Below are positions 40,472-46,113 of a stretch of DNA of 64,000 nt, piece by piece. The number at the start of each line of letters is the position of its first letter. The stretch's first letter is position 1. The position numbers were made by a program, and so were the translations under genes. Origin of the DNA: Aureicoccus marinus (lineage in GTDB: Bacteria; Bacteroidota; Bacteroidia; Flavobacteriales; Flavobacteriaceae); contig NZ_MQVX01000001.1 of assembly GCF_002954325.1 (NCBI RefSeq), positions 873,546 to 937,545 of the forward strand, given 5' to 3'. The notes beneath the pieces were generated by a model. It made no database searches and was not told the origin of the DNA. It saw only the letters and a list, made by a program, of their open reading frames with translations.

Positions 40472-40891
40472 ATGTCCATTACTTATAAGAAAACCTTTGG
40501 CCTGGAGGAGTTGTCTTCCATAGCCAAGGACTTGCTTGAACAAGTTACTTCCTCGATTATTTTACTGGATGGGCCCGTCGGTGCAGGAAAGACAACCCTG
40601 GTCAAGGAGCTGATTAGTCTCTTAGGTGCTGAAGATCAAGGCCACAGTCCGACCTTTGGACTTTTAAACGAATACGCCACGCCAGAAGGAGAGATCGTCG
40701 CTTATCATTTGGATGCTTACCGACTTCGATCAGAAGAAGAGGCTTTTGATCTCGGATTAGAAGAATTCTGGTTTATAAACACCCTTTTTATTATAGAATG
40801 GCCTAATAAACTGGGTTCCTTGGTCCCATCTGATGCCTTTTTCGTAAAGATTGACTACGCTGAGGGGGGTAAACGGCAGATTCATTGGTGA
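40472..40891 (+). CDS. tsaE: tRNA threonylcarbamoyladenosine biosynthesis ATPase
   Basis: TsaE is a 139-residue P-loop ATPase that regulates the TsaBD complex making t6A37 in ANN-decoding tRNAs. The Walker A motif is DGPVGAGKTTLVKEL near residue 31. HSPTFGLLNEY is the conserved switch region. VAYHLDAYRL and FIIEWPNKLG are family signatures. It is downstream of porX in the same direction, a neighbourhood often seen in Flavobacteriia. Confidence 0.95.
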   Translation: MSITYKKTFGLEELSSIAKDLLEQVTSSIILLDGPVGAGKTTLVKELISLLGAEDQGHSPTFGLLNEYATPEGEIVAYHLDAYRLRSEEEAFDLGLEEFWFINTLFIIEWPNKLGSLVPSDAFFVKIDYAEGGKRQIHW

Positions 40892-40979
40892 TTTCTTACA
40901 GAATCCGAAGAAACAGCTTATTTCTCCGGTGAACTGCATGAAAAATAGGTTAAAATGCAAAAATATTCGACGAACTACA

Positions 40980-41008
40980 TTGCCACCTCGTAGGAATCAC
41001 TACATTTG
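40980..41008 (+). promoter_or_regulatory. Promoter of the 44-residue secreted peptide gene
   Basis: TTG at 40980-40982 and TACATTTG at 41001-41008 match both Bacteroidota promoter elements, with an 18-base spacer. The predicted start of transcription is near 41012, which leaves an untranslated leader of about 37 bases before the ATG at 41049. This is the best-formed promoter in the window. Confidence 0.75.
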
Positions 41009-41048
41009 TCCGAAGTGAATTCATTTATTAACCAAAAATTTAGTTACG

Positions 41049-41183
41049 ATGAACACTAGAAGACTAGTTTTTGGATTCTTGGCAATGGTCACTTTGGTAG
41101 CGTCTGCTTTCAGCACGACTATTACCATTGATTCAGACCAAGAACCAGGTCTCAAAAGAAGTAAAATCACTCAAAAGAGATAA
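41049..41183 (+). CDS. 44-residue secreted peptide of unknown function
   Basis: ATG at 41049 opens a 45-codon ORF ending in TAA at 41181-41183. Residues 1-23 form a clear signal peptide (MNTRRLVFGFLAMVTLVAS, then AFS). There is no lipobox Cys. The mature part is about 20 residues, with an acidic half (DSDQEPG) and a basic end (LKRSKITQKR). The ORF has an excellent promoter 40 bases upstream and an intrinsic terminator 20 bases after the stop, so it is a complete monocistronic unit. I do not recognise the family. A periplasmic or secreted peptide, perhaps envelope-related, is the most that can be said. Confidence 0.72.
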   Translation: MNTRRLVFGFLAMVTLVASAFSTTITIDSDQEPGLKRSKITQKR

Positions 41184-41202
41184 TTTTACTTTAGACTAAT
41201 TG

Positions 41203-41230
41203 AAAAGGGCGATACTATTATCGTCCTTTT
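41203..41230 (+). terminator. Terminator of the secreted peptide gene
   Basis: A 12-bp stem with one G-T pair joins 41203-41214 to 41219-41230 around a 4-base loop. A run of six T at 41227-41232 closes it. Confidence 0.85.
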
Positions 41231-41259
41231 TTCGTTGCTATAAATTCTAGGATGGTATA

Positions 41260-42213
41260 ATGAATAGCAACCAAAATAAAAGCAAGAATATACAAGCGCG
41301 AAAGAGGATTTTGATTGAATCCTTTTTGGCTTTACTTATTCTGCTCTCCCCCTTTATTATCAAGCTGCACGAATACGTCCCGGAGACGGAAGATCCCTAC
41401 GGCTTAATTTTCTTTTCTATAGGACCCAATGGTTTTCAGGATACCTCCCTTCATGTGTGGTTTTTACTGACCAAATTGGTTCCCTTTTACCTCTGTATGA
41501 TCTGGTTCTTTACTTGTAAGCACTGGTGGTACCACATTATTTTGATTCCCCTGACTATGTACGCTTTTCAAATTGCCGAGTTGTACATTGACCCCGAAGA
41601 TATCGACAGTAACAGTATTATGTGGCTCCTGCCGGTCTGTATGGTAGTTATTCCTTTGGTTTACTTCATTCGTATCAAGTTGTATGACAAGCACGTGCAC
41701 GGAATTGATTTAAAGGCCATGAACGAAGAGCTCACTGTTTTACGTGAAAAAGAGGAACTGCGAATCGAAAAGGAGAAACTCGAAAAAAGAAAAGAGCGCC
41801 TAAAAAACATGGGAGGTGTAGGTCTTGAGACTTTTGACGCCGATGAACAAGGACCTGCAGGCTCTACAGAAGAACCAGATGCCTTACCTGTTCCCTCAGG
41901 AAACTACGACCTCTCTGCCGACCTGCCAGAGCCAATCAAAGAAGCCTTGGAAACAACCAAAGAGGTCCAAATGAAAACCTCTTTAAAGCCTCCGGTAACC
42001 ACGACTGAGTCTGATTCCAATGAAGAGGAAGAAAAATCTTCCGCCAATGTTGTGATCACTTCTTCGCCCAAAACACTACGCGAATCTCGAAAGGAGCGAC
42101 GCCAACGACTGGCCCGTGAACGGGAAGAGTCTCAAAACCAGGATACAACTTCCAGTGAAAACGACTTAGACGAAAAGTCAGAAAAGGCTCACCCCCTTCC
42201 GAAAAAAATGTAA
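41260..42213 (+). CDS. Membrane protein with charged coiled-coil tail, unknown
   Basis: This 317-residue protein has about four membrane helices in its first 140 residues: near 17-36, 65-85, 87-105 and 122-138. A highly charged helix follows (about 150-180, rich in EKEELRIEKEKLEKRK), then an acidic, low-complexity tail with many Glu, Ser and Thr, and a basic RKERRQRLARERE block near the end. Two tryptophans in HWWYHIILIP may lie at the membrane interface. I recognise the pattern as a flavobacterial family without a function. It is upstream of the alanine dehydrogenase gene and may be co-transcribed with it. Confidence 0.75.
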   Translation: MNSNQNKSKNIQARKRILIESFLALLILLSPFIIKLHEYVPETEDPYGLIFFSIGPNGFQDTSLHVWFLLTKLVPFYLCMIWFFTCKHWWYHIILIPLTMYAFQIAELYIDPEDIDSNSIMWLLPVCMVVIPLVYFIRIKLYDKHVHGIDLKAMNEELTVLREKEELRIEKEKLEKRKERLKNMGGVGLETFDADEQGPAGSTEEPDALPVPSGNYDLSADLPEPIKEALETTKEVQMKTSLKPPVTTTESDSNEEEEKSSANVVITSSPKTLRESRKERRQRLAREREESQNQDTTSSENDLDEKSEKAHPLPKKM

Positions 42214-42255: not shown

Positions 42256-43454
42256 ATGAACCAGCCTTCTTCTCCTTTCAGTAAACAGGAATTACTGCCC
42301 CAGGAGGAAACTCTAGAAGTCCTCAAACAAAAAGGTGAATTATTTATTGGGTTACCCAAAGAAAAACAATACCAGGAAAAGCGAATATGCCTTACTCCCG
42401 ACGCTGTTAATGCCTTGGTGATGCACGGGCACCGTGTTCTGATCGAATCTGGAGCGGGTGAAGGAGCCAATTATTCGGATTTAGATTATACCGAAGCCGG
42501 GGCAGAGGTCAGTAAGGATACCAAGAAGGTGTTTTCTTGCCCTCTTTTGCTCAAAGTAGAGCCCCCTACCCTACAGGAGATCAAAATGATCAATCCTCAG
42601 AGTATAATCATCTCGGCTCTTCAAATCAAAACCCAGTCGAAAAAATACTTCGAAGAGCTCGCAAAAAAGCGGCTAACGGCTATTGCCTTTGAGTATATTC
42701 AGGATGAAGATGGTACTTATCCTGCTGTTCGCTCCCTCAGTGAAATTGCCGGGACCTCTTCTGTCCTTATCGCTTCGGAGCTGATGTCCACCTCTGGAAT
42801 GGGTAATGGCTTGATGTTTGGCAATATCAGTGGTGTGCCTCCCGTAGAGGTGGTTATCATCGGAGCCGGCACCGTTGGTGAATTTGCGGCACGTTCAGCC
42901 TTGGGTCTTGGTGCCAACGTCAAGATTTTCGACAATTCGATTACAAAACTACGCAATATACAGACCCACCTACAGCAGACGGTATATACCTCCACTATGC
43001 AACCTAAAAATCTCATCAAAGCACTGAAGCGTTGTGATGTAGCCATTGGAGCTACCCGTGGTAAAGACCGCGCGCCGGTCGTGGTCAATGATGCCATGGT
43101 CGAAAAGATGAAGCAGGGAGCTATTATTATCGATGTCAGTATCGATATGGGGGGATGTTTCGAAACTTCAGAAGTCACGGATCACGATAAGCTACAGTAG
43201 AAAAGCACGGGGTTATTCACTATGGAGTTCCTAATATTCCTTCTCGCTACCCCAGAACCTCTAGTATTTCAATAAGCAATATCTTTACGCCTTATTTGCT
43301 AAAAATAGGCGAAGACGGTGGTCTGGAACACTCCCTGAGATTTGATCGGGGATTGCGAAATGGTCTCTATGTCTATCACGGCATATTGACCAAAAAATCG
43401 GTTGGAGATTGGTTTGGTCTTACCTACAGTGATATTAACTTCTTGATTTTCTGA
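42256..43454 (+). CDS. ald: Alanine dehydrogenase, frameshifted in this sequence
   Basis: This enzyme carries out NAD-dependent conversion of alanine to pyruvate and ammonium. The N-terminal domain has FIGLPKEKQYQEKRICLTP and, after it, the substrate Lys in LLLKVEPP. The NAD fold is seen in VVIIGAGTVGEFAARSALG. The frame stops at 43198-43200 after TDHDKLQ. If one C is added to the GCT at 43191-43193, the product reads HDKPTVEKHGVIHYGVPNIPSR and continues to TGA at 43452. This gives 399 residues, normal for the family. The next ORF starts on that stop as TGATG. A sequencing deletion is likelier than decay. Confidence 0.92.
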
Positions 43455-43810
43455 TGGTTTTAGGACGTCGTATTCTTTTTTATCTTTTCGGTGTTGGTTT
43501 AGGTTGTGTATTGGTGGTATTTATCCTTAAGCAGAAAAACGGTGGTAAGGCCGTGAAATACTGTTATCTTCCTAATTGTCGAGTCTTAAAGGACCTGAGA
43601 AGTAAACCACTCGTTCTCAACGAGAATATACAATCCAAAGACACCTCTGGAATTTCTGAAGCTCTCCTGGACGGAGATATACTGTTCAGCGAAAGCGACA
43701 CCCGAAAAGAACCTTGTGGTGAATACAGGATTGAATGGGAACAGTATCAGTTGCATGTTGCCAATTGTTCTACCGAAGTGAAAGTGCTCAATTGGAAAGC
43801 ACTACCCTAA
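43454..43810 (+). CDS. DUF4258-like membrane-anchored protein
   Basis: This 118-residue protein starts at ATG 43454, overlapping the ald stop by one base. An N-terminal membrane helix (LFYLFGVGLGCVLVVFIL) anchors a small outside domain. That domain has paired Cys (YCYLPNCRVL, EPCGEYRIEW and VANCSTEV) that could form disulphides. The pattern matches the DUF4258-containing protein that I recall next to ald in other Flavobacteriia. The function is unknown. Translational coupling with ald suggests linked expression. Confidence 0.78.
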   Translation: MVLGRRILFYLFGVGLGCVLVVFILKQKNGGKAVKYCYLPNCRVLKDLRSKPLVLNENIQSKDTSGISEALLDGDILFSESDTRKEPCGEYRIEWEQYQLHVANCSTEVKVLNWKALP

Positions 43811-45040: not shown

Positions 45041-46113
45041 TTGTCTATTAATTCCTTTGTTTTGAACGAGCAGTTTCAAGCCGATATACTTACTCCTCCT
45101 CTGGCCCAGGCCTTTCTCTCGCAGAAATTGGCCGCTGGACAGTACAGTTCTGTTTTTGTGTTATGCGATGACCAAACTCAATTCCACTGTTGGCCTGCTC
45201 TACAAAAATGGGTGCCGGAAGTTGCGGATGCGCACTTATTGGTTATGAAGTCCGGCGAAATCAACAAGACAATTGAAACCTGCACCAGCCTTTGGAAGGA
45301 ACTTTCTGTGGGCGGGGCAGATCGAAATAGTTTACTCGTTAACCTCGGAGGAGGCGTGGTGACAGACTTGGGCGGCTTTGTGGCATGCACCTACAAAAGA
45401 GGAATTGATTTTATCAATATACCCACTTCCCTATTGTCCATGGTCGATGCATCCGTTGGTGGTAAAACAGGTGTTGATTTAGGGATACTGAAGAACCAAG
45501 TGGGGATTATCCAAGAACCTATTGCTGTATTAGTTCTACCGAATTTTTTAAATACCCTGCCGGAGCGGCAGATGCATAATGGAATGGTGGAGATGCTAAA
45601 ACACGGATTGATCGTGGACAAAGGGCATTGGGATGTGCTAACTGTTGAGAACTGCAGTCAATTAGAGCTCATACAACATTCGATAGAGATAAAAAAAGAA
45701 GTCGTTCGACAAGATCCCACAGAGAAAGGCCTTCGGAAGATCCTGAATTTTGGGCATACGCTAGGGCATGCGATTGAATCATTTCTTTTAAATCATTCCG
45801 AGCGTTCCCCTCTTCTACACGGAGAAGCTATAGCGATTGGTATGATTCTAGAAGCCTATCTCTCTCACAAGGTATGTGGGTTGTCCCTTTTGGATGCCGA
45901 ATTGATCAAAAAAAGATTGATAGCATTTTTAAGAAGGAGACCTTTACTTCGGATGAAATTGAGGCTATTAGCAGTTTGATGCAGCACGATAAAAAAAATG
46001 TATCGGGAAATCTGCGCTTTTCTCTCCTTAAAGAGATCGGTCAAGGGGTCTATGACCAAGAAATTCAACTCGAAGATATCGCCGCAGCATTTGACTACTA
46101 CAAATCTGCTTAG
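45041..46113 (+). CDS. aroB: 3-dehydroquinate synthase, frameshifted in this sequence
   Basis: AroB closes the carbocyclic ring in the second step of the shikimate pathway. The NAD-binding part has NLGGGVVTDLGGFVA, followed by NIPTSLLSMVDASVGGKTG. Metal and substrate ligands lie in MVEMLKHGLI, LNFGHTLGHAIE and LLHGEAIAIGM. The frame breaks at the A7 run 45908-45914. With eight A the product reads LIKKKIDSIFKKETF and continues to TAA at 46111-46113, giving a normal 357 residues. Only TTG codons (45041 or 45062) are available as starts, so the N-terminus is uncertain. Confidence 0.92.

Follow-up and report, generated by a model that had tools for sequence, protein, structure and literature searches.

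Architecture of the locus

We analysed a 64,000-nucleotide stretch of the Aureicoccus marinus genome (contig NZ_MQVX01000001.1, positions 873,546–937,545), referred to here as the window. On its forward strand, a small gene encodes a secreted peptide, and the gene after it encodes a membrane protein with four predicted transmembrane (TM) helices. The pair is widespread among marine flavobacteria and occupies a slot in the order tsaE–peptide–membrane protein–ald. The variable end of the peptide and part of the membrane protein move together between genomes, and from the sequences we lean towards reading the locus as a polymorphic peptide signal with a cognate membrane partner.

The peptide precursor has 44 residues and is encoded at 41049–41183, with the ATG at 41049 and the stop codon at 41181–41183. 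Read directly from the sequence, its 44 codons give MNTRRLVFGFLAMVTLVASAFSTTITIDSDQEPGLKRSKITQKR. The predicted signal peptide covers approximately residues 1–20, and the variable C-terminal unit approximately residues 33–44. Inspection by eye suggests that signal peptidase I probably cuts at ASA/F, which would leave 24 residues. The sequence bears out the short mature part, acidic and then basic, described in an initial annotation made from the DNA alone. The window peptide lacks a lipobox cysteine. The open reading frame (ORF) list of the window holds many entries of similar size, so a length of 44 residues is by itself within chance. The gene is considered real because homologues are kept in the same slot, not because of its length, and on this comparison of sequences it is confirmed as real and conserved.

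Downstream of the stop codon, an intrinsic terminator at 41202–41233 folds into a 13-bp stem with a T run (GAAAAGGGCGATA-CTAT-TATCGTCCTTTTTTC), in agreement with the strong terminator of the initial annotation. A consensus terminator scanner missed this hairpin, presumably since the T run sits within the stem. Terminator-like hairpins are found in the equivalent position at three further loci (L003, L004 and L005; surveyed loci are given by number). RNA folding of the unit gave a z of −5.4, which rose to −2.8 with the terminator removed. An Rfam scan of the window returned no matches. An RNA-element reading was dropped, as the low folding energy is mostly due to the terminator.

The membrane protein gene follows at 41260–42213. 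The slot is bounded by tsaE at 40472–40891 (PF02367, supported by synteny) and by the alanine dehydrogenase gene ald at 42256–43200.

Conservation of the slot in Flavobacteriaceae

A search of 60 relatives with the window peptide gave weak yet syntenic matches in the same slot, such as KRLVFGLLACVTLLAVSCESNTAEDDQLYEDGVDKTLITKSNKRK. Searches of 299 genomes of the family used a profile (A1) of 14 peptide members and, separately, the downstream protein. The membrane protein was found in 211 of these genomes, representing 168 of 236 genera. At around 90 further loci from Flavobacteriaceae, the ORF directly upstream of the membrane protein gene encodes a small peptide that is secreted or anchored by a lipid; wherever the fetched sequence is long enough to show it, the pair is nearly always flanked by tsaE and ald. 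Just two surveyed membrane protein loci lack the upstream ORF: L145, which has one downstream, and L156. In Cellulophaga the tsaE–ald slot holds neither gene, and a class-wide search beyond the family found no convincing membrane protein partner. We found no prior description of the locus in the open-licence literature. Homologues at the same place in many genera, within conserved flanks, bear out the gene and the small secreted product described in the initial annotation.

The arrangement of the two genes differs between lineages. In the clade of the window, the terminator lies between them. In 42 of the 99 pairs, the reading frame of the membrane protein starts within the peptide gene, typically 59 nt before the peptide stop. 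The earlier description as monocistronic thus holds for the lineage of the window and fails for these 42 pairs. Both arrangements could be taken to mean that the small ORF and terminator chiefly regulate expression of the membrane protein, as a leader ORF or attenuator. This is hardly credible, given that the peptide is either conserved in amino acid sequence (signal peptide, C-terminal unit and repeats) or varies in step with the partner, and that up to six peptide copies precede one membrane gene.

Variation and repeats in the peptide family

The N-terminal signal sequence is alike throughout the family. The C-terminal 10–13 residues are highly variable around the pattern [VI][DE][KR]xx[IL] and frequently end in P-x-x-G. 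A lipobox cysteine is present in 67 of 99 precursors, and most relatives are predicted to be lipoproteins. The C-terminal unit is repeated in tandem in 13 of the 99 precursors, as counted by a script, with two to six copies. The precursor at L039 carries SVDRTKIRTSNRQ six times, and that at L119 carries IDKFQKPPKHGFAF six times. Amplification is also seen at the level of whole genes: peptide genes sharing one C-terminus stand ahead of a single membrane gene at L131 (six genes) and L138 (four). Complete peptide–membrane pairs are found in tandem as well, three at L124 and two each at L148 and L155. The precursor at L006/L091 contains four near-identical VDKTKIPSQAKKQSF units, and the same PSQ unit is common to L086 and L088.

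The membrane partner

The partner family comprises proteins of approximately 200 residues with four predicted TM helices and a cytosolic tail, the topology being assigned by the positive-inside rule. The motifs WF.T(C)..WW and P...Y.IR.K are invariant. The TM domain of the window protein spans approximately residues 15–145. This protein has 317 residues with a long low-complexity cytosolic tail, and the aligned relatives have approximately 175–220. Searches of Pfam, NCBIfam, PADLOC, PHROGs and PDB sequences gave no convincing family for the peptide and no convincing relative for the partner. An AlphaFold model of the partner from 12 sequences showed four helices only, with a predicted local distance difference test (pLDDT) score of 59.

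Distant paralogues of the partner (24–33% identity) are found near tsaE in several genomes, often as two domains in one protein of 400 residues. Clusters of these paralogues, often of the double-domain type, adjoin a small helix-turn-helix gene (SARQFDxSIGASNGYTLRM) at L169–L173 and L175. No convincing small ORF was found on scanning the stretches between the divergent paralogues.

Exchange of the peptide end and membrane domain as a cassette

The comparison of close relatives shows that the C-terminus of the peptide and the N-half of the membrane protein are swapped as a cassette, and that matching peptide types share a membrane allele even across lineages. L038 and L040 come from named Maribacter genomes. 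Both of their flanks are 95–100% identical in nearly all 60-bp windows, whereas the cassette, which begins midway through the signal peptide and stops where the membrane domain ends, is mostly 35–80% identical. In a second pair of the same genus, L187 and L188, the flanks are mostly 92–100% identical, with a few windows lower, and the cassette is 60–88% identical. Their tsaE genes are 98% identical, and the N-halves only 69%. The peptides end in ..GIEKKKLDRRI (L187) and ..GIDKKHLRPE (L188). In the membrane protein, most of the differences fall in TM1, TM2 and the periplasmic loop between them, and hardly any are seen in TM4 or at the beginning of the tail. L189, with 95% flank identity, has the peptide end of L188 and an N-half 99% identical to that of L188. 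Compared with L188, L190 has 76% identity in tsaE and 83% in the N-half, and its peptide ends in ..GIDKKHAKPVNH. The reverse case is seen in L043 and L044, where the membrane gene is 95% identical within flanks of approximately 82%. It is unlikely that several independent genomes were assembled chimerically at precisely this locus.

Over 70 loci, a partial Mantel test of peptide distance against N-half distance, given tsaE, ald and the signal peptide, yielded an r of 0.31 (maximum of 0.089 in 500 permutations). With the C-half of the membrane protein instead, r was 0.13.

Short disordered protein tails generally diverge fast. The peptide could thus be an ordinary conserved hypothetical lipoprotein with no recognition role, its variability reflecting relaxed constraint near a recombination-prone spot. 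This is very unlikely, because relaxed constraint accounts neither for the co-segregation with one half of a neighbour nor for the homogenised repeats.

The locus could also encode a small envelope lipoprotein that interacts structurally with an inner-membrane partner, its diversity coming from phage or protist pressure and not from signalling. The frequent lipobox cysteine, with acidic residues after it, would suit such a role, and surface proteins under attack typically show cassette exchange too. However, repetition affects the short segment at the C-terminus, amplified copies of the whole peptide gene keep that end unchanged, the partner is predicted to reside in the inner membrane and not to be exposed outside, and several clades lack the lipid anchor. 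We consider this explanation improbable.

A further possibility is a peptide toxin with its immunity protein: the peptide, secreted or lipid-anchored, would harm neighbours that carry another type, and the four-TM protein would shield the producer. The exchange of matched pairs as cassettes, the tandem pairs, and the peptide-less clusters of divergent membrane protein paralogues near the locus would all be expected of such a system. Against it, the C-terminal units differ from membrane-active bacteriocins in being short, hydrophilic and highly charged, and the paralogues are old, as their low identity indicates, and not recently captured alleles. A dedicated exporter was not seen nearby, and between close relatives the partner keeps a conserved cytosolic tail. 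We rank this explanation second, after the pairing of a signal with its partner, and regard it as unlikely.

Promoter, repeat array and regulon

The Bacteroidota-type −7 box TACATTTG at 41001–41008 fits TAnnTTTG, the −7 consensus known for Flavobacterium (PMC9723704), and is conserved in relatives. The initial annotation had described a near-ideal promoter with a −33 element, the TTG at 40980–40982 that is separated by an 18-nt spacer from the −7 box. Only 7 of 41 relatives have a TTG 16–22 nt ahead of the −7 box, so the "−33 box" is likely to be incidental; of that promoter, the −7 box is the part that stands.

The promoter of the window is preceded by a direct-repeat array at 40900–40978. 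It has four 17-nt units, which start at 40900, 40921, 40942 and 40962 (spacing of 21, 21 and 20), and these are presumed to be activator sites abutting the promoter. Across the clade of the window, promoters are preceded by two to four units of approximately TTTTTtCGATgAAATG at 20–21-bp spacing. The array motif was trained on this clade only, since training on mixed clades performed poorly. Scored on the training sequences themselves, the array reached a median of 39.9 bits against a shuffle maximum of 15.2 and exceeded every shuffle in 96% of loci. The 20–21-bp period and the position of the array match LytTR sites, for which two repeats of 9–11 nt with an 11–13-nt spacer just upstream of the promoter served as the reference (PMC4847170, PMC6193735); the match is one of geometry only, as the sequence is not diagnostic. 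In much of the clade with overlapping genes (L042–L045 and L142–L167), a single inverted repeat, TTTACGG-AAACCG, at approximately −128 takes the place of the array.

With a sequence model of the array (R1), the peptide locus was the best match in its own genome (E of 2.6e-6), and over 20 genomes it was the best match in most. Further two-site arrays were found at orthologous promoters, with gene functions assigned by eye from sequence. These include uvrC (seven genomes, among them that of the window), an S8-type protease gene (three), the superoxide dismutase/purF region (three), PorP/SprF-type genes and others. The occurrence of the element before uvrC in seven genomes points to a conserved regulon beyond the peptide locus. 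Here the element lies between a 5-formyltetrahydrofolate cyclo-ligase-like gene and uvrC (G000:C1:2605779-2605817 in the genome of the window, L223; also L225, L243, L245, L246, L255 and L266). At L219, L220 and L227, it precedes a subtilisin-like protease gene that adjoins an endonuclease/exonuclease/phosphatase gene. At L217, L224, L249 and L265, it precedes genes near PorP/SprF-type secretion proteins.

Proposed mechanism

We favour a signal with its partner because the variable peptide end and the membrane protein's outer half are exchanged as one, the types co-segregate and the peptide unit is amplified, as recognition pairs show. We infer this function from the anatomy of the locus and the population pattern. 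Sec would export the precursor, which would be a lipoprotein in most species and a free peptide in the genome of the window. Proteolysis would probably free the C-terminal unit, and the membrane protein from the matching allele would recognise it through its outer-facing part (TM1, periplasmic loop and TM2). The conserved TM3–TM4 and cytosolic tail could then relay recognition, so that own type is told from others, as in a pheromone–receptor pair. In the clade of the window, the intergenic terminator would yield much peptide and little partner. An activator with LytTR-like site geometry may drive the peptide locus together with a wider regulon.

Several points weigh against this proposal. Few exchange cases are available: two clear close pairs and a reverse one, all of them at species level. 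The membrane protein has no known signalling domain, and its model is too poor for docking the peptide on the partner. Lipoprotein status, predicted for most relatives, would tether the peptide. The peptide-less divergent paralogues also suit an immunity-type role, and the array score was calculated on the same sequences that trained the motif.

A broader proposal, which we put forward more tentatively, is a family-wide Bacteroidota system for Sec-exported pheromones or kin recognition. Type-specific C-terminal units, sometimes from multi-copy precursors, would be sensed by a new kinase-less class of four-TM proteins; the system would be swapped in the form of allele cassettes and connected to a regulon with secreted proteins and uvrC. 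The breadth of the partner across genera is one reason why the locus matters. The fixed address between tsaE and ald, candidate peptides of 10–13 residues that can be synthesized, and natural allele pairs in one genus make self/non-self recognition directly testable.

Neighbouring genes

From the neighbouring porX and tsaE, the initial annotation had raised a possible link to envelope or secretion control. A link to porX or tsaE is unsupported: co-variation with the peptide is seen in the downstream membrane protein gene. PorX is a response regulator that lies beyond tsaE and, as far as examined, does not vary with the peptide. The neighbourhood is conserved, yet a PorX partnership was dropped given this co-variation. 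Three things escaped the initial annotation: the peptide belongs to an exchangeable pair, its relatives are mostly predicted lipoproteins, and the feature that marks regulation is the repeat array and not an ideal −33 box.

The ald reading frame is broken (43160–43460). Its first 314 residues end at 43200 and the C-terminus resumes in another frame, whereas relatives are intact with 399 residues. Nearby, aroB is split into overlapping frames at 45041–45979 and 45874–46113 (overall 45041–46113). As this is a second frameshift close to ald, sequencing error is favoured, and the ald break is probably a sequencing or assembly indel.

Comparison with known systems

The locus was filed with neither ComCD/Agr, nor the LytTR Regulatory Systems (LRS), nor the class II bacteriocins, because features that define them are missing (a kinase; a LytTR gene in the locus; a double-glycine (GG) leader or exporter). 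The PG1828 family lipoprotein (NF050142) is also a short Bacteroidota lipoprotein. Members of the peptide family match it weakly over the N-terminus (best E of 1.8e-4), mainly in the signal peptide and below the curated cut-off (20.1 against 50 bits); the window peptide gave no match.

Class II bacteriocin–immunity clusters such as blp and pln combine a small peptide with a small membrane protein, have tandem and orphan partner genes and are LytTR-regulated. The present family resembles them in the peptide with a small membrane protein and in its tandem and orphan partner genes. It differs in the Sec-type or lipoprotein signal in place of a GG leader and in the hydrophilic peptide; there is no transporter gene between tsaE and ald, and no ATP-binding cassette (ABC) exporter was seen nearby.

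The LRS (HdrRM and BrsRM; PMC6193735) likewise contain a small membrane protein with no enzymatic domain. Their sites (9 bp with a 12-bp spacer) compare with the direct repeats found here, approximately 21 bp apart and just upstream of the promoter. Unlike the LRS, this locus has no LytTR gene between tsaE and ald, its arrays have two to four units, and a peptide gene is present.

ComC/ComD in streptococci and AgrD/AgrC in staphylococci are Gram-positive loci for a peptide pheromone and its receptor, and they occur as pherotypes. Pneumococcal pherotypes have been described (PMC2751782), and the membrane domain of ComD acts as the peptide sensor (PMC4873836). The present locus differs from these in belonging to Bacteroidota, in a precursor that is often a lipoprotein and in a four-TM partner of approximately 200 residues with no kinase domain. 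Neither an exporter nor a response regulator gene lies between tsaE and ald, and no sequence relationship to Com or Agr proteins was found. As in ComCD and Agr, a short secreted peptide adjoins its membrane partner, specificity would lie in the variable C-terminal region of the peptide and in one half of the membrane protein, and the alleles of peptide and partner co-vary and are exchanged together between conserved flanks.
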